Origin: Prevotella illustrans
Lineage (GTDB): Bacteria > Bacteroidota > Bacteroidia > Bacteroidales > Bacteroidaceae
DNA: 64,000 bases
Reading direction: 5' to 3'
Assembly: GCF_017426725.1 (NCBI RefSeq)
Contig: NZ_JAERMS010000002.1
Span: forward strand, 62,001-126,000
Shown: positions 950-61,049 of the stretch, piece by piece
How positions within the stretch are numbered: the stretch's first letter is position 1
How the letters are laid out: each line of letters opens with the position of its first letter
Notes under the pieces: model-generated
Told to the model about the DNA's origin: nothing
Databases searched by the model: none
Seen by the model: the letters and a program-made list of their open reading frames with translations, nothing else
Position numbers and translations under genes: made by a program

Positions 950-3577
950 CTAATCGGATACAGATTCGTCTTGAGTCGATTTCGCTGTATCCTCTACTTC
1001 GATTGGATTAGGCGAGAAGTCACTTTGTAAAGTGGCGGTAGAATTAATATCGTTCTGAATTTCTTCATTTTTTCGAGTCCAATTTGAACGGCTTTCCTCT
1101 TCTACAGAAGCCTCTAAATCAGAACACATCACTTTGCAGACGCTGGCGATAACATCATTTTTCTTTTCCAGATTAATAAGTTTCACACCCTGGGTCGCAC
1201 GTCCCATAACGCGGCAGTCGGCAACGGACAAGCGAATTACGATACCACTCTTATTGATGATCATCAAATCATTTTTATCCGTTACATTCTTAATTGCGAC
1301 CAAAAGTCCCGTCTTCTCTGTGATGTTCAAGGTTTTCACACCCTTTCCACCCCGATTCGTGACACGATAATCTTCTACCTGCGAACGTTTACCATACCCG
1401 TTTTCACTAACCACCATGATCGTTTCTTCCTCAGGATTGTTGACAACAACCATTCCAATAACCTGGTCATCACCTCCGTCAAGTCTCATTCCTCGAACTC
1501 CGGTGGCAGTTCTTCCCATGGTACGAACCGTGTTTTCGTCAAAACGGACAGCACGGCCATTTCGGTTGGCCATAATCAATTCATTATGACCATTTGTAAG
1601 GCGAACATCAACAACCTCGTCACCTTCAGCAATATTTATCGCTATCACGCCATTGGTGCGGGGACGTGAATAGGCTTCAAGAGTTGTTTTCTTAACAGTA
1701 CCGTTCTTTGTTGCGAAGATCACATAATGCGAATTGATAAATTCTTCGTCATTCAACCCTTGCAATCGAAGTATTGCGTTAATCGCGTCGTCAGGCTCTA
1801 TATTAAGCATATTCTGGATAGCGCGTCCCTTGGAATCTTTACCTCCTTCCGGAATCTCATAGCATTTCAGCCAATAACATCTACCCTTCTTTGTAAAGAA
1901 CAACATGGTTTGGTGCATTGTGGCAGGATAAATAAACTCTGTGAAATCCTGCTCACGATGACGTGCTCCCTTACTGCCAACACCGCCTCTGGCCTGCTCT
2001 CTGAACTCAGACAGAGGAGTGCGCTTGATATATCCCATATGACTGACAGTAATAACTACCGGATCGTTAGGATAGAAGTCTTCGGGATTAAACTCGTGAT
2101 CGTATGGCTTAATCTTTGTACGACGAACGTCGCCATATTTCTCCTTCACTTCTAAAAGGTCATCTTTCATAACTTTTTTACAAAGTTCAGGATCACTCAA
2201 AATCTGATTGAAATAGTCTATCTGTCGTTCCAATTCTTCATATTCGGTATGTAACTGGTCCATTCTTAGGCCTGTCAACTGACTCAATCTCATGTCTACA
2301 ATAGCCTTGCTTTGCAGTTCATCGAGATTAAAGCGTTGCTCCAAATTACTTTGAGCCTCAGATGGCGTTTTACTGTTCCGGATTATATGAACAACTTCAT
2401 CAATATTATCACATGCGATTATTAATCCTTCTAAGATATGCGCTCTTTCTTGAGCTTTGTTTAAATCGTATTGGGTACGCCGGATTGTGACTTCGTGACG
2501 ATGTTCGACAAAATATTTAATACATTCTTTTAAGCAAAGAAGCCGTGGACGCCCCTTAACCAGCGCGATGCAATTAACAGAGAAAGAACTTTGCAGTGCA
2601 GTCATTTTAAAAAGCTTATTCAAAACGACATTAGCATTAGCGTCACGTTTTACATCTATTACAATGCGCATACCTTGACGGCCCGACTCATCATTCGCGT
2701 TCGAGATTCCGTCGAGTTTGCCTTCTTTAACAAGTTCTGCGATATATTCAATAAGTTGTTGCTTATTGACTCCGTAAGGTATTTCTGTAATGACGATCTT
2801 ATCATGGTCGTCATCGCTCTCTATATCAGCCGTGGCTCGGATGATGATACGCCCACGCCCCGTCTCATACGCGTCTTTTACTCCCTGTAAACCATATATA
2901 GTTGCGCCTGTCGGGAAATCCGGCGCAGGCAAAAACTTCATTAATCCCTCTGTATCTATATCGGGATTGTCAATATACGCGCAACAACTGTCAATTACTT
3001 CTCCAAGATTGTGGGTGGGCATATTCGTAGCCATACCCACAGCGATGCCATTGCCGCCGTTCACCAAAAGATTTGGAATCCTTGTTGGCATCACGGTCGG
3101 CTCTTGAAGAGTATCATCAAAGTTATTGGTCATATCCACCGTATCTTTTTCAAGATCGTCCATAACATGTTCGCCCATTTTTGACAAGCGACATTCCGTA
3201 TAACGCATGGCGGCAGGCGAGTCGCCATCAACCGAACCAAAGTTTCCTTGACCATCTACAAGCTTATACCGCATATTCCAGTCTTGCCCCATACGGACCA
3301 GGGCACCATAGACAGAGCTATCACCATGCGGATGATATTTTCCAAGAACCTCACCAACGACGCGAGCGCACTTCTTATAAGGGTTTGTACTTGTATTACC
3401 TATTCCGAGCATACCGTATAAAATACGCCGATGAACAGGTTTAAATCCATCCCGAACATCAGGAAGCGCACGGGCTACGATCACCGACATCGAATAATCT
3501 ATATAAGAAGACTTCATTTCTTCTTCTATATTTATTTTTAAAATACGGTCCTGATCAATAGTTTGGTTTTCGTCCAT
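950..3577 (-). CDS. gyrA: DNA gyrase subunit A
   Basis: 875 residues, the usual gyrase A length. GyrA cuts and rejoins DNA in the A2B2 gyrase that introduces negative supercoils. The N-terminal breakage-reunion domain has the signature around residues 40-55 ([18 protein letters not shown]), the helix with [15 protein letters not shown] at about 82-96, and the catalytic tyrosine in AAMRYTE (Tyr126). The C-terminal part forms the beta-pinwheel blades and contains a GyrA-box-like motif, TNRGGKG, a variant of QRRGGKG; its presence favours GyrA over ParC. A roughly 65-residue acidic, serine-rich tail follows. In the quinolone-resistance region the serine equivalent to E. coli Ser83 is kept, while the position of Asp87 is glycine, which I believe is usual in this phylum. 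No clear promoter was found upstream. Confidence 0.97.
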
Positions 3578-3929
3578 AAAGTTTTCTCTTTTTATTTTAT
3601 CAATTAGCTTGTCCTAAACTGTTAGAAATTGAGCGTAACCGCGTTTTCTTGCGATTTAAGACGTTTTACATACTTTCAAGCGGCTAAATTAATTAAAAAA
3701 AATGGTTTAATCAAATTATTACAACTAATTCACATTGCTTTTACGAATAATTGGCTGCATTAAACTTCACAATAAGATTAATGAAACGGTCGAAACTCAC
3801 CAAAAAAAGGAGAAGGCATTAAAATCCGTTTATTATATACGATATCGGAACGTGTTGAAGAGCCTCGACGTGACCACTTGAAAGAATACACATCATTTGT
3901 AAGCCCATCCTCATATTGATTCAGTGTTC
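3578..3929. other. Intergenic stretch upstream of gyrA, no gene seen
   Basis: About 350 AT-rich bases between the gyrA start and the left edge of repeat copy A. No convincing coding frame, RNA gene or TAnnTTTG-type promoter on the minus strand was found, although gyrA must be transcribed from somewhere here or further upstream. Confidence 0.5.
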
Positions 3930-4300
3930 CGTGATTTTGTCAGAAAAAACTACCTGATTTTAACACTTCCGCAATACGTCATTTAGCTGCCGAAATGGCG
4001 AAAAACGTCTTTGATTTGTCGATTTTTATATCTTTTTATGCTCAAAGCTATCCTTTTATCGGCTCAAAGCATAGCGATTAGCTCGTCAAAGCATAGCTTT
4101 TAGCCAATGAAAGGGCCGCGATTACGGCCTAAAAGCATAGCGATTAAGGGTAAAAAAGTGACGGAAAAACACACCTAAAAATGCAATGTTTTGATAATCA
4201 AAGCTTTATAAACTTGCTCAAAAATCGCTTATTTTCGCCCGTCTCTTTTCTTTTCCGAAATAATGCCACTTTTTTGATGGTATATGTAAAGATAATTCAG
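3930..4300 (+). repeat. Intergenic repeat family, copy A (~371 bp)
   Basis: One of three near full-length copies in this window (B at 59239-59610 plus, C at 45038-45410 minus), with a divergent relative D at about 29660-29935. The left end begins CGTGATTTTGT and the right end is a 43-bp block at 4258-4300 (AATAATGCCACTTTTTTGAT ... ATAATTCAG) that is identical in B and differs at two positions in C. A central 28-bp block at 4053-4080 is identical in all three. The centre holds three AAAGCATAGC motifs (about 4066, 4088 and 4132) and a GGCCG-CGATTA-CGGCC hairpin. No open reading frame spans it. No terminal inverted repeat or target duplication is apparent. It lies between the end of the nqr operon and gyrA. 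Confidence 0.88.
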
Positions 4301-4348
4301 GGCCGGTAGATTTGTCGTAAGCCCAATTTATAAGCGTTGCGTCAGTCT

Positions 4349-4446: not shown

Positions 4447-5715
4447 TTATCCAAAATTATCGTACATGATAGCATCTTGTTCTACGCCCAAACTATCCAG
4501 ATAATCTGTTACGGTTTTAATAAGCATTGGCGGTCCGCAAAGATAATATTCACAATCTTCCGGTGCGTCATGATCTTTCAAATAGGTATCGCGAATGCAA
4601 TTTACCGCAAAACCTTCATAATATTTCACCCCTTGCGCGTCTGCAATAGGATCCTTTTGATCAAGAGAAAGGTGGAAATGGAAATTGGGATATTCTTTTT
4701 CTAATTCCCAAAAATCTTCCAAGAAGAAAGCCTCTCTTAAAGCTCGGGCGCCATAGAAAAAATGCATCTGTCGGTCAGTTGTATGCAATGTCTTCGTCAT
4801 GTGCATAATCTGAGCGCGAAGAGGCGCCATTCCTGCTCCACCACCAATCCAAATCATCTCTTTACCGGAAGTAAAATTAGGATGAAATTCGCCATAAGGA
4901 CCACTCATCATGACCTTGTCGCCTGGTTTAAGGCTAAAGATATAAGAAGAGCCAATACCGGTAGGAACATCTTGGAAACCGACTTGAGGGCGAGGTAAGA
5001 AAGGAGTGCTGGCAATTCGAACGGTCAGGGTTATGATATCACCTTCCGCAGGATAGTTTGCCATGGAATATGCCCGCACTGTAGGTTCCGGATTATGAGC
5101 CTTCAATGAGAAAATATTAAACTTCTTCCAAGTTTCTATATAATCTTCTCCGATGGCCTTTTTATCAAAATCTTTATCATAATCTATACAATCATAAGCC
5201 GGTATCTTGATTTGAGCGTAAGAACCGGGAATAAAGTCCATATGCTCACCGGCGGGGAGCGCCACTTTGAACTCTTTGATGAACGAACTGACATTATTAT
5301 TGGAAATAACAGTACATTCCCATTCTTTTACACCCATTATGGTTTCCGGAACTAAAATCTTCAAATCACCCTTTACCTTACACTGACAGCCTAAACGCCA
5401 ATGGTCTTTTATTTGCTTGCGAGTGAAATGAGGCCGCTCCGAATCAAGAATTTCTCCGCCTCCTTCAAGGACCTGCACTTTACATTGTCCACAACTGGCT
5501 TTACCACCACATGCAGAAGGTAGGAAAATTCCATTCTCATTCAACGTGGCCATTAAAGAAGCCCCCTGCCCTACAGAAAGACTTTTTTCGCCATTAATAT
5601 CAATCGCAACATTTCCGCTGGGACTCAGATATTTCTTTGCCACCAACAAAATGACAACCAAGAGAATGATTGTTACCAGAAAAACTCCTATGCTTGCTGA
5701 TATAAATTCTGCCAT
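4447..5715 (-). CDS. nqrF: Na+-translocating NADH:quinone reductase subunit F
   Basis: 422 residues; the subunit that takes electrons from NADH and passes them into the sodium-pumping NQR complex of the inner membrane. One N-terminal membrane helix (about residues 5-27) is followed by a plant-type 2Fe-2S domain with the cysteines in SACGGKASCGQC and LGCQC, an FAD-binding barrel with RAYSMANYP, and an NADH-binding domain with GGGAGMAPLR and YYLCGPPML. The C-terminus ends in the family-typical YDNFG. It is the last gene of the nqrABCDEF operon, 16 bp after nqrE, and precedes a strong terminator. Confidence 0.97.
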   Translation of the reverse strand: MAEFISASIGVFLVTIILLVVILLVAKKYLSPSGNVAIDINGEKSLSVGQGASLMATLNENGIFLPSACGGKASCGQCKVQVLEGGGEILDSERPHFTRKQIKDHWRLGCQCKVKGDLKILVPETIMGVKEWECTVISNNNVSSFIKEFKVALPAGEHMDFIPGSYAQIKIPAYDCIDYDKDFDKKAIGEDYIETWKKFNIFSLKAHNPEPTVRAYSMANYPAEGDIITLTVRIASTPFLPRPQVGFQDVPTGIGSSYIFSLKPGDKVMMSGPYGEFHPNFTSGKEMIWIGGGAGMAPLRAQIMHMTKTLHTTDRQMHFFYGARALREAFFLEDFWELEKEYPNFHFHLSLDQKDPIADAQGVKYYEGFAVNCIRDTYLKDHDAPEDCEYYLCGPPMLIKTVTDYLDSLGVEQDAIMYDNFG

Positions 5716-29659: not shown

Positions 29660-29935
29660 GTCATTTGAGCCCATTTGATCGTAAAAGCATAGCTATAAGC
29701 AGCCAAAAGCAGTGCTTTTACCGGCCAAAAGCTATGCTTTTAGTTAGTAAAAGAGGGCTAATTATAACGTAAAAGCATGCAAAACGAGCCATCCAAGAAG
29801 CGCTTTTTAAGAGACATAACGCCTAACTGTTTGATATTCAGCAATATGTAACTTCGCGTTTAAATTGATTATTTGCGGCCGATTAGTGGCTCAAGAATAA
29901 TAATGGCACTATTTTAGTACCTTTTGTAAAATATT
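29660..29935 (+). repeat. Intergenic repeat family, divergent copy D (~276 bp)
   Basis: It shares the layout of copies A-C but is clearly more diverged and lacks the left end. AAAAGCATAGC (29683), AAAAGCTATGCTTTTA (about 29727) and degenerate versions (AGCAGTGCTTTTA, AAAAGCATGC) replace the three regular motifs. Further right, TTTGATATTCAG ... GATTATTTGCGGCCG aligns with TTTGATAATCAAAG ... GCTTATTTTCGCCCG of copy A. The right end AATAATGGCACTATTTTAGT corresponds to AATAATGCCACTTTTTTGAT. It runs into the promoter of the rhodanese gene. Confidence 0.72.
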
Positions 29936-29957
29936 ATCGCAAATTCTTTGTATTTTT
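29923..29957 (+). promoter_or_regulatory. Promoter of the rhodanese lipoprotein gene
   Basis: TTTG at 29923-29926 and TATTTTTG at 29950-29957 with 23 bp between them; the -33 part overlaps the right end of repeat copy D. Confidence 0.55.
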
Positions 29958-41358: not shown

Positions 41359-44300
41359 TTAGAAAGTCACACGCAAACCTACCTGCATTTGCCAACGGCT
41401 GTAAATGTCGCTCTTGTTTGGCGCATAGCCGAGGAATGTATAAGAAGGGGTATATTTGCCGTTATTCTCGGTAAGTTTTTCCACTTTCAAGATGGTTTCA
41501 CTATAGGCGCTTGCGTAGTTCGTCCCCCAATCATGGTTCAGCAAATTCGCAAAGTTCAGAATGTCCAATGTCAATTCAACCTTGCTGCCACGTTCTTTCA
41601 AGTAATAGAAGCTCTGCGCGAAGTGAACGTCGAAGCGATTCTCCCAAGGAGCTGCAGCTTGATTGCGCTCAGAATACTTACCGCGATTGTTTTTGGCATA
41701 CCTGTTTCCTTCTATCCAGTTACCAAAGGCTGTACGACCTTCTTCGGCTGTCATGATTACTTTACCAGACTTATCTTTAACATCAACAAATGTCATCTTG
41801 GCTAATTCATCCTTCGTTGGGATATAAAGCAAGGTATTGCCTTTCTGGGTATCACCATTGAAATCCGCACCGTTTTCATTCATGGTAAAGCTGTAACGCT
41901 GGCCGGAAGTTCCGTTATAGGTTACGGAAACGTTGGTTGAGAAGCGTCCGTTCGCGTATTTAGGAGAAGAATAAGAAGCCACGGCAAGAACACGATGAGG
42001 AATATCGAACATCGTCTTTGAAAGCTCATTCTTGTTGTTCGGGTTTACGCAATAGTTGTATTTCCAGTTAGAATAAGCAATCGAAGAAGTACCGTCGATG
42101 ACACCATAAGAATGCCCAAAGGTATAGCTTGCCATCAAATCGAGGCCCCAAGCGAAACTCTTCTCCAACTTTCCACTGACACTATAGCTGTAACCCTTGT
42201 TTGTATTCTTCAAGTTCACGATAGCGTAATAGTCACCTGCCTTCGTGTCGAAATATGTAGTTTCAGAAGCCGGAACGTCTTCGCTCACCGCGTATACTCT
42301 CTTGCCGTTGTCCTTAATGGCAAGATTCTCAAACCATACATTGTTCAACGTTTTGGAATATAAGCCTTCCAACGTCATTTTAACATCACCGGGCAACGTT
42401 GTTTCCCAAGCCAAGTTGGCACGGAACACCTGCGGATACTTAAAGTTCTTGCCAATAGTATTGATGGTCGGCTTGGCTGCTTTGCCTGCGGCAGACATGG
42501 CTGCAGCGTAAGCATCGACACCGTACTTGCTGAAAGAAGGTACATTCTTGTTTTGGATGGTAGTACCCTTCATTTCCATACCTGTGTTGTTCCAGGCATT
42601 GGACAACCATACAAAAGGAACACGCCCTGTGAAGAGCCCCGCGCCGCCACGAATCAGGTTCTTGTGGCTGTCATCCGTATACCAACGGAAGCCGAGACGA
42701 GGGGAAAACATAAACTTTGTAGATGGGAGTTCGCCAACCTTCACGCCAAAGTCCTTTGCGTAGTCGCTGGCATTGAACTCCGGATTTGCCGTAGGACTGC
42801 TCATCGTCATCGGCATATCCAAACGCAAGCCATAAGTAAGATTCAAGTTTGTGCTTACGTCCCATTTGTCCTGTACATAGAAACCAAGCTGAGCCGCTTC
42901 TACGGTTCCGGCCCATTTGGTTGTACCGGTCATATCGACATCAGAATAGTTATAGACAAATTTCCAAGCGTTATCATTTTTGAAATCCTCTAAAGACTTA
43001 TAATAGTAAGCGCCATTGTTCGCCTGAATAAAAAGGTTCTGCATATGATAGAACTCGTTATGCGTACCAAAAGTAATGCTGTGGTTGCCGGTAGACCATG
43101 TCAGGTTGTCTTCGATGGTATAGATGTCCTGATCCAACATGTTGGCGCCGGAAGAGTATTCCGTACCAATATAGACTCTCTGGCCTTTCTTCTCACCAAA
43201 GCCCTGGATTTCAACATTTGGAGCACCATAGGCTACGCCACGGTTATCACGAACGAAAGTCATACCTACACGAGCCTCGTTATAGAGCGCGTCGTTCAAG
43301 CGAGAGTTTAATTCCGCAACGAAAGAGTTGGTACGATTGTTCATGCGATAGCCACTATTGGCAAAGTAATAAGTGGTCGAACCTGCAGCGTAAACATCTT
43401 TGTAAGAATCATTCAACTGATAACGGAAAGTGAACTTGTTATTGTCATCTATGTTCCAGTCCAAACGGGCCAAGGCAGAGATAGAGCGGGTGTCGAGTGA
43501 ACGGTGAGCTTTACTTTCCTCTACGCCGGTATACTTTTTATAGATATCAATAACCTCCTGAGCCTGGCTCTCTGTAATATAATCAGACTTATAGCCGGGG
43601 AAATAAGTTGAAGGATAAGAGTTTTTCTTATATTCAAAATTAGTGAAGAAGAACACCTTATCCTTTACAAAAGCGCCGCCTAAAGAAGCGCCGTAAGTCT
43701 TGGTCGACTGGTCGCCAAGCTTCTGTTTCTTGTCAAGCACCTGGCTCCAAGTGCCAAACATGTTCTCATCCGTATAATATGTATAGGCGGAAGCACGGAA
43801 AGTATTGGTACCTGATTTTGTAATAGCGTTGATGCCACCACCGGTGAAACCGCCCTGACGAACATCAAATGGAGAAGCTACCACCTGAATCTGCTCAATG
43901 GCATCCATTGAAATAGGGTTTGTACCGGTTTGACCTCCGTTTGTACCGGAACTGGAAAGGCCGAATACGTCGTTAGAAACCATACCGTCGATTTGGAAAG
44001 AATTGTAACGGTTGTTCGAACCCGCGATAGAAAGACCTCCAATCTTAGAAGCGTTTACCAGCGGAGAGAGTTTTGCCACGTCGTATACATTACGGTTGAT
44101 AGTCGGCGTATTATCTATCTGCTTCTGATTAAAGTTAGAGGAAGCTCCCATACCGCTTTTGCCGGCAACACCAGACACGACAACTTCGCCCAAGACCTGA
44201 GCGTCTTCTTTCAGATCGGCATTAATAACAGAATTCTCACCTAAGCTCAAAAAGATGTTTGAACGCACATCATTCTTGTAACCGATGTAAGAAATCGTCA

Positions 44301-44532
44301 CGGTATAAGGTCCGCCTACACGCATACCCTGAATGTTGAAACGGCCACTCGTGTTGGTTACGCTGTTGTAAGTCGTACCGGAAGGCACATGAACGGCTGT
44401 AACTGTGGCGCCAATTACATCTTCGCCGCCGGCAAGCACCTTGCCATTAATACCTGAAGTTGTGACTTGAGCCATCATGCTTGTTGCAAAAAAGAGCATG
44501 ACCGCCATTAAAAAATGCAATTTCTTTTGCAT
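41359..44532 (-). CDS. Oar-like TonB-dependent outer-membrane receptor
   Basis: 1057 residues. A signal peptide (MQKKLHFLMAVMLFFATSMM-A) is followed by a carboxypeptidase-regulatory-like domain (about residues 25-110, SGINGKVLAGGEDVIGATVT), a plug domain with SFQIDGMVSNDVFG and IEQIQVVASPFDVRQGGFTG, and a large 22-strand barrel ending in MQVGLRVTF. The plug features match the Oar-type group of TonB-dependent transporters rather than SusC, and no SusD gene is next to it. The ligand is unknown. Its own terminator and a likely promoter make it a single-gene unit. Confidence 0.92.
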   Translation of the reverse strand: MQKKLHFLMAVMLFFATSMMAQVTTSGINGKVLAGGEDVIGATVTAVHVPSGTTYNSVTNTSGRFNIQGMRVGGPYTVTISYIGYKNDVRSNIFLSLGENSVINADLKEDAQVLGEVVVSGVAGKSGMGASSNFNQKQIDNTPTINRNVYDVAKLSPLVNASKIGGLSIAGSNNRYNSFQIDGMVSNDVFGLSSSGTNGGQTGTNPISMDAIEQIQVVASPFDVRQGGFTGGGINAITKSGTNTFRASAYTYYTDENMFGTWSQVLDKKQKLGDQSTKTYGASLGGAFVKDKVFFFTNFEYKKNSYPSTYFPGYKSDYITESQAQEVIDIYKKYTGVEESKAHRSLDTRSISALARLDWNIDDNNKFTFRYQLNDSYKDVYAAGSTTYYFANSGYRMNNRTNSFVAELNSRLNDALYNEARVGMTFVRDNRGVAYGAPNVEIQGFGEKKGQRVYIGTEYSSGANMLDQDIYTIEDNLTWSTGNHSITFGTHNEFYHMQNLFIQANNGAYYYKSLEDFKNDNAWKFVYNYSDVDMTGTTKWAGTVEAAQLGFYVQDKWDVSTNLNLTYGLRLDMPMTMSSPTANPEFNASDYAKDFGVKVGELPSTKFMFSPRLGFRWYTDDSHKNLIRGGAGLFTGRVPFVWLSNAWNNTGMEMKGTTIQNKNVPSFSKYGVDAYAAAMSAAGKAAKPTINTIGKNFKYPQVFRANLAWETTLPGDVKMTLEGLYSKTLNNVWFENLAIKDNGKRVYAVSEDVPASETTYFDTKAGDYYAIVNLKNTNKGYSYSVSGKLEKSFAWGLDLMASYTFGHSYGVIDGTSSIAYSNWKYNYCVNPNNKNELSKTMFDIPHRVLAVASYSSPKYANGRFSTNVSVTYNGTSGQRYSFTMNENGADFNGDTQKGNTLLYIPTKDELAKMTFVDVKDKSGKVIMTAEEGRTAFGNWIEGNRYAKNNRGKYSERNQAAAPWENRFDVHFAQSFYYLKERGSKVELTLDILNFANLLNHDWGTNYASAYSETILKVEKLTENNGKYTPSYTFLGYAPNKSDIYSRWQMQVGLRVTF

Positions 44533-44912: not shown

Positions 44913-45037
44913 GTTTTATGTCTTTCTTGGCCGCTTGCGGCCCTTATGTCTTTGTTCCTCACAGCCTGAAAAATATGTTTTTATGTCTTTATGTCAAAAA
45001 AAATATCATGCGAAGAATATGTCCTTATGTCTTTACC
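44913..45037 (-). repeat. Extension module of repeat copy C with GGCCGC hairpin
   Basis: It contains at least four TTATGTCTTT motifs and the hairpin GGCCGCTTGCGGCC at about 44928-44942. The reverse complement of this region matches the DNA directly after copy B (AAAGACATCAGGGCCGCAAG, 59628-59647), in the same order relative to the repeat, so it belongs to the same element. Confidence 0.65.
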
Positions 45038-45410
45038 CTGAATAATCTTTACATATACCATCAAAAAAGTGGCATTATTCTGAAAAAGAAAAGAGACGGA
45101 CGAAAATAAGCGATTGTAGAGCAACGTTATAAAATGCTGGTTATCAACATTTTGCGTTTTTCATGGTATTTTCCCTTCGCTTTTTTGCCCTTAATAGCTA
45201 TGCTTTCAGGCCGTAATCGCGGCCCTTTCATCTGCTAAAAGCTATGCTTTGACAAGGTAATCGCTATGCTTTGAGCCGATAAAAGGACAGCTTTGGGCAT
45301 AAAGGGGTATAAAAATCGGCAAACCGAAATGTTTTTTCGGCATGCCGGCACTTAGATGACATGTTGCGGAAGTGTTAAAATCTGGTAGTTTTTTCTGACA
45401 AAATCACGGG
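45038..45410 (-). repeat. Intergenic repeat family, copy C (~373 bp)
   Basis: Minus-strand copy. The right-end block (45038-45080) differs from copies A and B at two of 43 positions; the central 28 bp (45258-45285) are identical to both; and the left end (CCCGTGATTTTGTCAGAAAA on the minus strand) is at 45410. Three GCTATGC motifs lie at about 45201, 45239 and 45262. It sits between the TonB receptor gene and the ABC operon. Confidence 0.88.
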
Positions 45411-45528: not shown

Positions 45529-46728
45529 CTAATCTTTTCTAAACCATATTCGAAGTATCTTTCGTCGGATAACAGCGACATTCAATACGGTGACGAGCAG
45601 CAATAAAATGAGTCCCAGTATGAAGCTCGGTATCATGGAACTGTCGTCGACGGCAGGTTGAAGCGTTTGGATGATATCCATATAATAGCCGCGTATAAAA
45701 AACAGAACCGAGAGCGCAACGACCAGCACGACAGCGTTGAGAGCCAGCGTCAACAGCTGATAGGGTTTGGCGACCGCGCCCGGACTATAACCTATGAGTA
45801 AAAGATTTTCAAGCTTATCCGCGTTTTTCTGTACCAAAAGATAAATGCTCAGCATGAGAATATAAAAACTCAAGACAGAAATAACAAGCCCTACCGTCAT
45901 CACGATCATCACGACAAGTTTCAGAAAATAGATGGATTTCTCCGAATTCAACTTGTCATCTTCCAGCTCATAACCTTTCTTGTCGAAGTATTTTGAAACG
46001 GCCATATCTGAAGGATTTCCCACTTCAAGAATCAATCGTGTGGGTTCGGCGTTCCGTCCCGGGGAGAAATAATCATTGCTCCAATCCATGAAAGATTGCG
46101 GAACGAGAATCGAGGACAGCTTACCGGAGAAGCCGATAACCTTTCCTTGAAAGCTCGCTTCATGGTGATTTCCCTGGATGAACAGCCGAAAGTCGATCAT
46201 TCCGACCAGGCCTTCACTCAACTTTGGCAGGCTGTGGCTTTGGGCAAACCCGAAATTGTATATCGTCAGATAGGTCTTCGGCAAAATGATAGGTACCACA
46301 TGGTCGCCCGGTTTGTATTGCCACAGACTTTTGTCTACTTCAATAAATTCGTCGGGAATGCTTTCAAAGAAAAGCTCTGTATTGGCGATATTCACTCCAT
46401 TGATGCTCATGTTCGCAAGAACCTTGTAGTCCGTACTTGTGAAAACGCCGAACTTAGTGACAAACTTCTGGTCCTTCAGCTCGTCTATCTCTGCGTTATC
46501 AAACATGCTTGCCCGTCCGGATATCGTTCCGGCCGTGCCCACCTTTTTACTGACAATCAGATAACCTTGCTTCATGAAGCTGTCTTCGGCTGTGAAGACG
46601 GGCACTACATCCTGAAAAAACTGATATCCCAAAAGAACGATAAGCATACCGAACAGGTTGGCAAAAAAGAAGCCGAACATCTGTGGCATGCTGATATGCT
46701 GTCGCAATAATTTCCAAACAATATTCAT
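45529..46728 (-). CDS. FtsX-like ABC transporter permease
   Basis: 399 residues with the topology of type VII ABC permeases (MacB/LolCDE/FtsX): one N-terminal membrane helix (about 18-38), a periplasmic domain of about 220 residues, and three C-terminal helices (about 270-300, 320-345, 370-392). The loop after the second helix contains NADKLENLLLIGYSPGAVAK, a coupling-helix-like segment. It follows the ATPase gene by 11 bp, so the two should form one transporter. The partner lipoprotein upstream suggests an envelope role; no substrate is known. Confidence 0.85.
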   Translation of the reverse strand: MNIVWKLLRQHISMPQMFGFFFANLFGMLIVLLGYQFFQDVVPVFTAEDSFMKQGYLIVSKKVGTAGTISGRASMFDNAEIDELKDQKFVTKFGVFTSTDYKVLANMSINGVNIANTELFFESIPDEFIEVDKSLWQYKPGDHVVPIILPKTYLTIYNFGFAQSHSLPKLSEGLVGMIDFRLFIQGNHHEASFQGKVIGFSGKLSSILVPQSFMDWSNDYFSPGRNAEPTRLILEVGNPSDMAVSKYFDKKGYELEDDKLNSEKSIYFLKLVVMIVMTVGLVISVLSFYILMLSIYLLVQKNADKLENLLLIGYSPGAVAKPYQLLTLALNAVVLVVALSVLFFIRGYYMDIIQTLQPAVDDSSMIPSFILGLILLLLVTVLNVAVIRRKILRIWFRKD

Positions 46729-52015: not shown

Positions 52016-52120
52016 TGTTTAATGAAACAATATTGCTTTTAAAAAGCTTTGTCCATTCAATTATAAAGGCTAAATTTGCAATGTGTTTTTCATGGTATTA
52101 GATTATTAAGGTTAATAAAG

Positions 52121-52151
52121 ATTGGTTGTCGTGAGACAATCAATTTTTTTT
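52121..52151 (+). terminator. Terminator of the DUF3256 gene
   Basis: ATTGGTTGTC-GTGA-GACAATCAAT forms a 10-bp stem with one G-U pair (52121-52144), followed by eight T. Confidence 0.85.
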
Positions 52152-52195
52152 GTCTCATAATTTACCGGCTAATTATCCGCGCTTTATCATACTTC

Positions 52196-58568: not shown

Positions 58569-59075
58569 TCAAGCCTTCGCCTCGGCTTCTTCGTATTCGG
58601 GAGTGTCGTTTTTCTCCTTTCCCGAAACTGTCGATTTGTGCTCAAATACATCCATGATCTGTGTTTCCTGAATGGCGCTGATCACATAATCAATCATCGT
58701 TCCACCCATCACCTCCTCAATATGCTTGACAGCTAACGGCAGATTGCCCGCCTGCACCAGATAGGTTACCGTGGAGCGTTTCTCTTTTTCGGTCTTTTCG
58801 TCAATCGTGATAAACTGAAGTTTGATCTTGTACCACTTGTCATCGTTGTCCGCGTCGCTGAAGAATATTTCCCCATAACCGGCCATCTTGATATCACGCA
58901 CCTTGAAATCGCCGGTGATATAAGCCGACATCTCTTCAATTATGGCATTCTCAGCCTCGGTAAAGCTCAACGCGTCGACAACATATTGTTCGGTGGTCAT
59001 CTTCTGAGAACCGTCCTCCATCATTTTTTCATAACGAATCTTGGTTTCAAACCAACTACTTGTTCTACTTCTCAT
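58569..59075 (-). CDS. DUF4494-family protein
   Basis: 168 residues, cytoplasmic, acidic, with no signal peptide. It matches DUF4494, a family nearly confined to Bacteroidota: SWFETKIRYEKMMEDGSQKM, ALSFTEAENAIIEEMSAYIT and KWYKIKLQFITIDEKTEKEK are recognisable. The C-terminal 30 residues are charged and probably disordered. Function unknown; it may be co-transcribed with yggS, 21 bp away. Confidence 0.87.
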   Translation of the reverse strand: MRSRTSSWFETKIRYEKMMEDGSQKMTTEQYVVDALSFTEAENAIIEEMSAYITGDFKVRDIKMAGYGEIFFSDADNDDKWYKIKLQFITIDEKTEKEKRSTVTYLVQAGNLPLAVKHIEEVMGGTMIDYVISAIQETQIMDVFEHKSTVSGKEKNDTPEYEEAEAKA

Positions 59076-59238: not shown

Positions 59239-59610
59239 CCCGTGATTTTGTTATAAAAAATCGCATTATTTTAACACTTCTGCAACATCTCATTCAGCTG
59301 CCGTCATGCCGGAAAAAGCCTTCGTTTTGCCGATTTCTGCACCCTTTTATGCTCAAAGCTGTCCTTTTATCGGCTCAAAGCATAGCGATTACACGGTCAA
59401 AGCATAGCTTTCTGCCGATAAAAGGGCCGCGATTACGGCCTAAAAGCATAGCTATTAAAGGTAAAAAAGCAAAGGAGAAACACCCATAAAAATACAATAT
59501 GTTGATAATCAGCGCTTTATAAAGTCGCGCAAAAATCGCTTATTTTCGTCCAAGTCTTTTCTTTTTCAAATAATGCCACTTTTTTGATGGTATATGTAAA
59601 GATAATTCAG
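59239..59610 (+). repeat. Intergenic repeat family, copy B (~372 bp)
   Basis: Near full-length plus-strand copy. The right end (59568-59610) is identical over 43 bp to copy A, and the central 28-bp block (59364-59391) is identical in A and C. The three AAAGCATAGC motifs are at about 59377, 59399 and 59442. It lies between a minus-strand gene and the plus-strand aminotransferase, so it is in a divergent intergenic region. Confidence 0.88.
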
Positions 59611-59735
59611 GTTTTCTCATTGCTGTTTTCAAAGACATCAGGGCCGCAAGCGGCCAAGAAAAGCATAAGGCTAATTTTCCAAGGAAAAATCGGTATTTTC
59701 ACGCTACTTTGAGCAAGTGCCGGTAGAAAACAGTC
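59611..59735 (+). repeat. Extension module of repeat copy B
   Basis: It begins after ATAATTCAG and contains GGGCCGCAAGCGGCC (59641-59655) between AAAGACAT and AAGCATAAGG, the reverse complement of the region next to copy C. The final GCCGGTAGA also follows copy A at about 4302-4310, but the intervening 110 bp are missing there, consistent with a deletion in A. Confidence 0.65.
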
Positions 59736-59797
59736 ATTTTTTAAGTCAATTTTTCCCAAATGCGATGGAAAACATCAGTTAATAGACTGAATTTTCT

Positions 59798-59805
59798 TAA
59801 TTTTG
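59798..59805 (+). promoter_or_regulatory. Putative -7 element of the aminotransferase gene
   Basis: TAATTTTG fits TAnnTTTG, 38 bp upstream of the chosen ATG at 59844; it rules against the upstream ATG at 59760. Confidence 0.6.
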
Positions 59806-59843
59806 CACAGAAGATAACCCAAGACATATCAAGTATAATTAAA

Positions 59844-61049
59844 ATGCCGGAAATTTCAGTTCGAGGTATAGAGATGCCAGAATCTCCTATCAGAAAGTTG
59901 GCACCCTTGGCAATGGAAGCCAAAAAGAAAGGTATCAAAGTATATCACCTAAATATCGGTCAGCCCGACCTGCCAACTCCCCAATGTGGTTTAGACGCTC
60001 TGAAGAATATCAACCGAACGGTTTTGGAGTATTCGCCAAGCCAAGGATATCTAAGCTACAGGCAAAAACTTGTTGATTACTATAAAAAATATGATATTCA
60101 CGTGACGGCCGACGACATCATCATTACTTCGGGTGGTAGTGAGGCCGTGCTGTTCACCTTCATGAGCTGTCTCAATCCCGGCGATGAAATCATTGTTCCC
60201 GAGCCCGCTTATGCCAATTACATGGCTTTTGCCATCAGTGCCGGCGCCAAGATAAAAACGATCGCGACAACCATAGACGAAGGTTTTTCGCTGCCCAAGG
60301 TCGAAAAGTTTGAGGAACTGATCAACGACCGTACCAGGGCCATTATGATTTGCAACCCCAACAATCCTACGGGATATCTCTATACAAGGCACGAAATGAA
60401 CCAGATCAAGGATCTTGTCAAGAAGTACGACCTGTACCTCTTCTCCGACGAGGTGTATAGAGAGTACATTTATACGGGTAGTCCCTATATATCGGCTTGC
60501 CATTTGGAAGGTATTGAGCAGAATGTGGTTCTCATCGATTCCGTTTCGAAGCGGTATTCGGAATGTGGTATCAGAATCGGAGCTTTGATCACGAAAAACG
60601 AACAGATCAGAAAGGCTGTGATGAAGTTCTGCCAAGCCAGGCTGTCGCCCCCTCTGATCGGACAGATCGTTGCCGAAGCGTCGCTCGACGCGCCCGAAAG
60701 CTATTATCGTGACGTGTATGACGAGTACGTAGAACGCCGGAAATGCCTGATCGATGGGTTGAACCGGATACATGGCGTCTACTCTCCGATTCCGATGGGG
60801 GCCTTTTATACGGTGGCCAAACTGCCGGTTGACGATGCCGAAAAGTTCTGCAGATGGTGCTTAAAGGAATTTAACGACGAGGGCGAAACGGTCATGATGG
60901 CACCGGCCTCGGGCTTTTATACGACTCCGGGAGCCGGCCGCAACCAAGTAAGAATAGCCTACGTACTGAAGAAAGAAGACCTGGCGCGCGCGCTCGTCAT
61001 ATTAAGAAAAGCACTCGACGCTTATCCGGGCAGAGTAGACGAAGATTGA
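59844..61049 (+). CDS. PLP-dependent class I/II aminotransferase (aspartate aminotransferase-like)
   Basis: 401 residues from the ATG at 59844; an earlier in-frame ATG lies upstream of the promoter element. PLP and substrate motifs are clear: YHLNIGQPDLPTP, VLEYSPSQGYLSYRQKL, MICNPNNPTGYLYT, FSDEVYREYIY, the Schiff-base lysine in SVSKRYSECGIRIGALIT and the carboxylate-binding Arg in GRNQVRIAYVL. It moves amino groups between an amino acid, probably aspartate or aromatic, and 2-oxoglutarate. The SKRYSECG segment differs from the common SKTYAMTGWR. A permease gene follows 9 bp later. Confidence 0.93.
   Translation: MPEISVRGIEMPESPIRKLAPLAMEAKKKGIKVYHLNIGQPDLPTPQCGLDALKNINRTVLEYSPSQGYLSYRQKLVDYYKKYDIHVTADDIIITSGGSEAVLFTFMSCLNPGDEIIVPEPAYANYMAFAISAGAKIKTIATTIDEGFSLPKVEKFEELINDRTRAIMICNPNNPTGYLYTRHEMNQIKDLVKKYDLYLFSDEVYREYIYTGSPYISACHLEGIEQNVVLIDSVSKRYSECGIRIGALITKNEQIRKAVMKFCQARLSPPLIGQIVAEASLDAPESYYRDVYDEYVERRKCLIDGLNRIHGVYSPIPMGAFYTVAKLPVDDAEKFCRWCLKEFNDEGETVMMAPASGFYTTPGAGRNQVRIAYVLKKEDLARALVILRKALDAYPGRVDED

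Follow-up and report, generated by a model that had tools for sequence, protein, structure and literature searches.

A dispersed intergenic element of Prevotella with genome-specific 22-bp arrays beside a shared anchor block

The window analysed here, a stretch of 64,000 bp from Prevotella illustrans, holds three full-length copies of a repeat that we read, with somewhat better than even confidence, as the P. illustrans representative of a family of dispersed, non-autonomous elements found across Prevotella sensu lato, its array of 22-bp units serving as the cis-site of a DNA-binding protein specific to each genome. Mobility of the element is well supported; the protein that would read the array is a part of the proposal that we infer.

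Copy A (3929-4301, forward strand, 373-bp core) lies between a gyrA-like gene (950-3577, reverse) and an nqrF-like reductase gene (4447-5715, reverse), copy B (59240-59611, forward, 372-bp core) between a DUF4494 gene (58569-59075, reverse) and an aminotransferase gene (59760-61049, forward), and copy C (45037-45409, reverse, 373-bp core) between a TonB-plug/outer-membrane gene (41359-44532, reverse) and an FtsX gene (45529-46728, reverse). An earlier note on this DNA had placed all three correctly within a base or two and had taken them for one repeat family, as the pairwise alignments confirm, running end to end at about 85% identity with E ≤ 2e–117. Nor are the copies chance resemblances: a right-end pattern allowing up to three mismatches found 67 sites in this genome, and a reversed control pattern found none. 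The window also contains a diverged relative (29660-29940, forward), flanked by Flavodoxin_2 and rhodanese genes, with array motifs of the AAAGCATAGC type, a related right end, and an anchor (29829-29883) that scored 37.5 bits with the anchor model described below, of which it is itself a training row.

The element runs from a left end through a series of 22-bp units, five of them in this genome, and an anchor block to a right end. The five-unit arrays, with unit starts read from the sequence, occupy 4044..4153 in copy A (forward; units starting at 4044, 4066, 4088, 4110 and 4132, three of the five containing AAAGCATAGC), 59355..59464 in copy B (forward) and 45185..45294 in copy C (reverse). 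All three copies have GCATAGC at element positions 141, 163 and 207, with spacings of 22 and 44 that place the motifs on a 22-bp grid, and a GGCCG/CGGCC hairpin stands at position 186; the common order of these motifs and hairpin had been reported earlier, and the positions prove to be identical. The anchor block opens with a small dyad (of TGA-N3-TCA type, by eye), followed by AAAAyCGCkTATTTTCG. We described it with anchor model R1 (58 positions, sequence-only), made from 14 rows that included copies A to C, the window relative and several other genomes, and trained partly on loci found with the core from this genome. The anchors of copy A (4189..4242, forward, TTGATAATCA ... AAAATCGCTTATTTTCG), copy B (59500..59554, forward) and copy C (45096..45149, reverse), all of them training rows, scored 55.9, 57.9 and 51.1 bits with this model, respectively. 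The 43-bp right end of copy A (4259..4301, forward) is among the most conserved stretches of the core; its claimed identity between A and B holds, and of the two differences claimed for C one was found inside the block. A 28-bp central block said to be identical in all three copies is visible in the alignment as some 30 bp, the longest block identical in all three being one of 35 bp inside the right end. The copies are intergenic and, as had been stated, carry no coding frame, no frame of at least 90 codons spanning any of the 52 copies examined.

Copy numbers throughout are lower bounds. Scoring 40 of 203 BLAST candidates gave at least 40 full-core matches in this genome, all nearly full-length and 83–100% identical, and scoring 150 of 1571 candidates gave at least 92 anchor matches at E ≤ 0.01. 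Short (core about 373 bp), non-coding, dispersed and multi-copy (67 right ends), the element shows a trait of MITEs. In contigs C48, C70, C80, C98, C99 and C105 of this genome a copy's 35-bp right end follows 7–43 bases after the contig start, from which we conclude that the repeats break the assembly; the repeat class probably disrupts short-read Prevotella assemblies.

Variation was assessed in an alignment of 49 full copies, from which L036, L104 and L100 were excluded (indels or strong divergence), as were copies cut by contig ends from all core statistics. The median identity between copies is 85%, which the word 'recently' fits loosely in the earlier suggestion of a recently spread non-autonomous element; the spread itself stands, as described below. 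Constraint is uneven from site to site: 150 of the 372 columns are invariant, against 2.3 expected under one uniform rate, and in 44 columns the major base falls below 0.7, against 0.02 expected. Per-copy totals came to 28 indels versus 1805 base differences from the consensus, with no internal indel in 41 of the 49 copies and a nearly constant core length. This strong constraint lends support to the idea of selection on sites. Together with the rarity of indels, the 150 invariant columns exceed the expectation for a decaying parasite, which we count against our preferred reading, and which makes a serious, if unlikely, rival of the view that the copies are host-useful binding arrays, maintained by selection across the chromosome for a nucleoid or regulatory protein to bind, with recombination re-seeding them and keeping them homogeneous. 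The recurrence of the 22-bp spacing while the unit sequence turns over also suits that view, against which the genomic placement of the copies has to be set.

The copies appear to have exchanged sequence. Linkage between variable sites of the core fell from an r2 of 0.26 at 1–2 bp to 0.04 at 21–40 bp (shuffled, 0.016–0.025), i.e., near background within 20–40 bp, and all four allele combinations occurred in 96% of site pairs 21–40 bp apart. The flanks differ among copies; 23 copies belong to right-flank class R1 and 16 to R2, and the comparison of these two classes omits 10 copies in neither. The two classes differed at core sites 14–29, 361 and 372 (p down to 3e–6), and site 103 was the only interior site, among 95 sites tested, with p < 0.01. 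Since class differences lie, site 103 apart, at end sites, the ends travel with their flanks and the interiors have been shuffled between classes, a shuffling that we read as gene conversion, with recurrent mutation at hot sites as a possible explanation for part of it. The earlier picture of conserved ends with diverged DNA between them is thus too simple, in that the array and anchor are conserved too and the ends are linked to flank class. A second repeated module (a AAAGACATAAGG... tandem with a GGGCCGCAAGCGGCC hairpin) was observed at 44924-44954 and 59630-59660; it adjoins many copies in this genome (right-flank class R2).

Copies of right-flank class R1 can be extended to a larger unit with a 29-bp imperfect inverted repeat outside the core, GGCTCACTCGATCATTTGTGGGGACAAGT on the left and GGGTCAGTAGAAAATTAGTGGGGACAGGT read from the right, for which a degenerate pattern found 52 sites and a control none. 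The left repeat was found for 15 of the 52 copies (in one of these 621 bp away), the right repeat, at 55–59 bp, for 20, and both repeats, with up to seven errors, for eight, one of which is the copy with its left repeat 621 bp off. Most copies are without one or both repeats and none was seen in the core itself, so that the earlier remark that there was no clear terminal inverted repeat is right for the core and fails for those copies that lie within the larger unit. Copy A retains a remnant of the left carrier module outside its core (3893..3928, forward; 52 flanks compared by eye). Perfect 8-bp direct repeats lie immediately outside three of the eight carriers (GTATATAC, TTCTTTAT and CTACATTC); the flanks of the other five match at 6, 4, 2, 0 and 0 of 8 positions, both zeros being same-flank copies, and mis-paired flanks (n = 54) match at no more than 5 of 8. 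The binomial P for these duplications is 3e–13, treating the eight carriers as independent although two share flanks. Four of the eight carriers show no target duplication, a further point that we count against the preferred reading.

At the core's own borders no convincing target duplication was found among 50 copies here or 13 in genome G423. With all offsets and lengths of 3–10 tried, the best excess over these many settings was a 3-mer, present in 16% of the 50 copies here versus 8% of mis-paired ones, and in 23% of the 13 G423 copies versus 3%. The 8-bp duplications therefore point to movement of the inverted-repeat carrier and not of the bare core, at whose borders we found neither inverted repeats nor duplications. 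Direct-repeat ends (a similar motif at both ends, by eye) were also tried as a candidate, and are unsupported here and at most weak elsewhere: the best 9-base end match in direct, inverted and shuffled comparison, respectively, was 6.00, 6.25 and 6.78 in this genome, 8.10, 7.30 and 7.63 in G015, 8.10, 8.00 and 7.53 in G058, 8.30, 8.20 and 7.70 in G224, 8.40, 7.60 and 7.27 in G177, and 7.00, 6.00 and 6.53 in G423. No transposase was recognised by eye near the inverted repeats (16 of the 52 sites, up to about 400 bp inwards, many cut by contig ends), and the right-repeat pattern, with up to two mismatches, is absent from the other 199 genus genomes searched.

Several loci around these carriers deserve mention in their own right. 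The two copies at L113 and L137 represent a nested or composite form: within the inverted-repeat unit they run into repeated DNA that reads ...PRLTPREQGIPYKDHVHEK.QDEVGSD.... L137 (1-1271; contig C93, this genome) also holds a CRISPR-like array of 20 repeats of about 30 nt with 34–37-nt spacers, some 230 bp from the left inverted repeat of the element copy. L122 (contig C51, near 52580) has a right inverted-repeat end with no adjacent core, immediately upstream of a SusC-type-looking frame.

The neighbourhood of copy A, gyrA-nqrF, is conserved in the nearest relative, G242 (best match of 299 genomes), where 124 bp separate the aligned gyrA and nqrF, compared with 692 bp here; copy A is thus absent from the orthologous gap, whose exact junction is unalignable. 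G242 has nine anchor matches at E ≤ 0.5, four of these at E ≤ 0.01, and the five inspected look heterogeneous. The homogeneous set of copies thus presumably arose in the lineage of the present genome. Across 115 loci (52 here, 63 elsewhere), a neighbour protein was shared in 13 cross-genome pairs at E ≤ 1e–12, five of them at 68% identity or more, including one between G130 and G303 (neighbour proteins 91% identical). Random placement, on a rough hand estimate, would give a similar figure. The spread that the earlier note had proposed is therefore supported by the target duplications at three of the eight carriers, by the G242 gap lacking copy A and by neighbours that are mostly unshared. The unshared neighbours and the state of G242 (no copy A, few anchor matches) also speak against host-useful arrays, as do the 153 of 299 genus genomes without a match at E ≤ 0.01 under strict filters and the lack of orientation bias relative to genes or, on the matches listed, to GC-skew sign.

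Gene-orientation classes were balanced (14, 13, 11 and 9 among the 47 copies with both neighbours), and we therefore rejected the idea that the element serves a gene as promoter, 5' leader or terminator. An impression of replichore-polarised sites, gained from the best 28 G423 matches, was gone in the larger set: with replichore borders placed by eye from 20 samples per chromosome, 28 of 45 matches agreed with GC-skew sign in G423 (45 of 53 listed; p 0.14), or 26 of 45 with another border, and 10 of 24 in G015 (24 of 43 listed; pooled with G423, p 0.47). In the G015 chromosome, 0.93 Mb (1.106-2.037 Mb) has no match among the 24 of 43 listed (p 0.008, post hoc); among the matches listed for G423 there was no comparable anchor-free stretch of note (p 0.16).

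Beyond this genome, the whole core gave way to smaller shared parts. A search with copy B found matches at E ≤ 0.001 in 17 of 200 genus genomes, the present one among them (three candidates scored per genome); among the matches listed, those outside this genome are pieces of about 30–103 bp, and at this depth of scoring the whole core was found in this genome only. An exact tail pattern had no match outside this genome either, and for that reason a profile was used. Anchor model R1 matched 146 of 299 genus genomes at E ≤ 0.01 (up to 18 candidates scored per genome; many genomes incomplete) and 72 of the 131 high-quality genomes, some holding many matches: at least 53 in G423 and at least 43 in G015 (150 candidates scored each). 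In the wider family, 11 of 199 genomes matched at E ≤ 1e–4, belonging to 3 of 22 genera, both other genera weakly. A degenerate exact pattern, run against 84,980 species, was found in 44 places, all in Prevotellaceae, Prevotella, Hoylesella or Segatella records, and Segatella buccae ATCC 33574 carries the element, one copy having been read in its record. Copies confined to this strain would, according to the earlier note, have spoken against a functional role; the architecture, rather than the whole-core sequence, occurs across the genus. A phage or plasmid origin was rejected, copy B having no blastn match in plasmid and phage collections; one 18-mer found no viral contig, and a 16-mer is present in 23 viral contigs, two of which reach 22.9–25.2 bits with anchor model R1.

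What recurs beside the anchor is a period. Testing the 185 bp upstream of the anchor for self-similarity at lags 10–49 (40 lags), we found a best lag of 22 or 44 in 26 of 29 genomes, which are not independent and of which 23 rest on one locus, the loci outside this genome having been found by their anchor. Period scores are weak in some genomes (top z 2.7–2.9 in G037 and G045), and the 22-bp period is missing from G011 (no period) and from G058 and G224 (lag 21), in both of which a long hairpin replaces the array, by eye. A search for AAAGCATAGC-gap-AAAGCATAGC, with a free gap of 4–30, matched 16 of 149 genomes; none of the genomes listed had a control match, and the pair recurs at period 22 in the places listed, except for 15 of the 22 places of G202 (period 23) and one of G227. 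Arrays folded at 22 bp showed dyad symmetry at p ≤ 0.05 in 36 of 66 loci and at p ≤ 0.01 in 22, with odd-centred dyads in 33 of the 36 symmetric loci, e.g., TGCAAAATG-ACC-CATTTTGCA (G272; one base by symmetry) and CTCACTA-CGA-TAGTGAG (G117). The AAAGCATAGC unit of the present genome is partly symmetric, not strictly palindromic, and two units have fixed unpaired flanking positions.

The units themselves are replaced from genome to genome. Seven genomes were compared by local alignment, this one represented by 10 copies and G423 by 8 of its first 10 loci. Arrays scored 27–100 within genomes, 13.3 between genomes and 10.0 when shuffled, and anchors 25–38, 20.2 and 6.9; across genomes, array similarity barely rises above noise, in contrast to a plainly shared anchor. 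For G015, G028, G177 and G423, which carry the most weight, anchors are only 4.5–8 points closer within than between genomes, yet arrays score 2–4 times higher. The array of L160, a locus of this genome outside the 373-bp family, resembles this genome (35.3 vs. 9.2–13.8). The window relative is likewise nearest to this genome in its array (28.0 vs. 8.6–13.6); it is so in its anchor as well (19.0 vs. 10.7–14.2), and plain descent could therefore explain its shared array. Genome-specific units beside a shared anchor are our main argument for a trans-acting reader, as a fixed 22-bp architecture with genome-by-genome sequence replacement is hard to explain without one; exchange of arrays between copies is an alternative explanation for the genome-specific units. 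Among the roles floated earlier for the motif cluster, that of a protein-binding array is the best account of it, the protein itself being something we infer.

The same data bear on an ordinary MITE with a minisatellite, in which the 22-bp period would arise by tandem duplication and the palindromes by template-switch correction, with no reader protein. Covariation of palindrome arms can arise from template switching in the absence of selection. Some copies do bear inverted repeats and 8-bp duplications, the array of the G423 copy L329 is longer by 43 bases (about two units), and minisatellite-bearing MITEs are known in P. gingivalis (PMC4596501). We nonetheless consider this explanation distinctly doubtful, given that the same period lies beside the anchor in 26 of 29 genomes with unit sequences that differ (seven genomes compared), and that length is near-constant, with 41 of 49 copies free of internal indels, unlike free minisatellites.

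Palindromes also raise the matter of RNA structure. In G423 the central palindrome has compensatory changes at 8 of its 17 pairs (16 of 20 copies), a count as high in 0 of 500 shuffles, with 94.9% of cells paired and at most three compensatory pairs in slid registers; each copy was taken in its best-pairing register and four of the 20 were dropped (L330, L336, L338 and L348, which were masked or formed fewer than 11 pairs in the fixed register), which favours pairing, and one of the four, L336, pairs well in another register. For 14 G423 copies, in a full alignment that omits these four plus L340 and L333, RNAalifold gave –42.9 kcal/mol, with 17 of 56 pairs changed on both sides. Such figures would suit structured non-coding RNAs that form a genome-wide family, a reading that we hold to be very improbable; a dyad DNA site explains the same compensations. 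In the present genome the structured RNA offered by the earlier note is unsupported: the RNAalifold consensus of 49 copies is –11.0 kcal/mol, with 2 of 36 pairs changed on both sides, and long-range covariation was absent, no column pair more than 15 nt apart exceeding the largest value of 12 shuffles. No Rfam family reached its gathering score in the window copies or in four element loci; the latter gave five below-threshold matches, one of which, mir-722 (E 0.61), overlaps the element hairpin of L225 and is taken by us as chance. Elsewhere in the window, 52083-52153 (forward) matches Rfam FopS, a paralogous sRNA family of Bacteroidetes, at 74.6 bits, above the gathering score.

Under the preferred reading, a mobile non-autonomous element whose array is a cis-site, the array would present sites on one helix face, about two turns per unit, to a dimeric DNA-binding protein whose specificity would differ between species and which would most likely belong to the apparatus responsible for copying or moving the element in trans. 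More tentatively, we raise the possibility of a genus-wide two-part system, in which the 22-bp-phased arrays of dozens of intergenic elements are read by a dimeric protein with a species-specific target and co-evolve with it, the copies within a genome being homogenised by exchange. The prediction is of a protein that discriminates between the arrays of two species, binding one and not the other, and the genus would then offer a natural series for the joint change of a DNA-binding specificity and dozens of its sites.

Among known systems, BOX of Streptococcus pneumoniae and BIME/REP of enterobacteria are modular dispersed intergenic repeats with palindromes, like the Prevotella element; to our knowledge they have no fixed 22-bp array and belong to other phyla, and they are set apart by description. 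Iteron origins, e.g., R6K gamma, resemble it in having tandem 22-bp protein-binding units beside an AT-rich block; unlike them, the Prevotella element has dozens of chromosomal copies per genome, and no gene next to copy A, B or C belongs to a replication-initiator family. We recognised no description of the element in Prevotella in the literature searched, which was mostly without subscription papers. The MITEPgRS and MITE464 elements of P. gingivalis are also MITEs with internal tandem repeats, and differ by description in their 41-nt repeats and IS5-like ends (PMC4596501). BrickBuilt (Klein et al. 2015, PMC4596501), an intergenic P. gingivalis MITE composed of a leader, 23-nt tandem units and a tail, is described in that paper as intergenic, non-coding, multi-copy, arranged as leader, units and tail, built on a unit of about two turns and limited in host range, all like the Prevotella element. 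The same paper puts its unit number at 1 to 22.8, in contrast to the almost fixed core length in this genome, and its host range by BLAST at P. gingivalis only, with homologues in P. gulae, whereas the Prevotella architecture spans its genus. The BrickBuilt unit consensus AGAYCATARTATCCTCTCRTRTG has no match in the window at up to three mismatches, and its IS5-like end GAGACCTTTGCA no exact match in 427 loci. The closest known kind that we found is the minisatellite-bearing MITE represented by BrickBuilt of P. gingivalis, and it is with that kind, not as a member of BrickBuilt, that the Prevotella element is filed.
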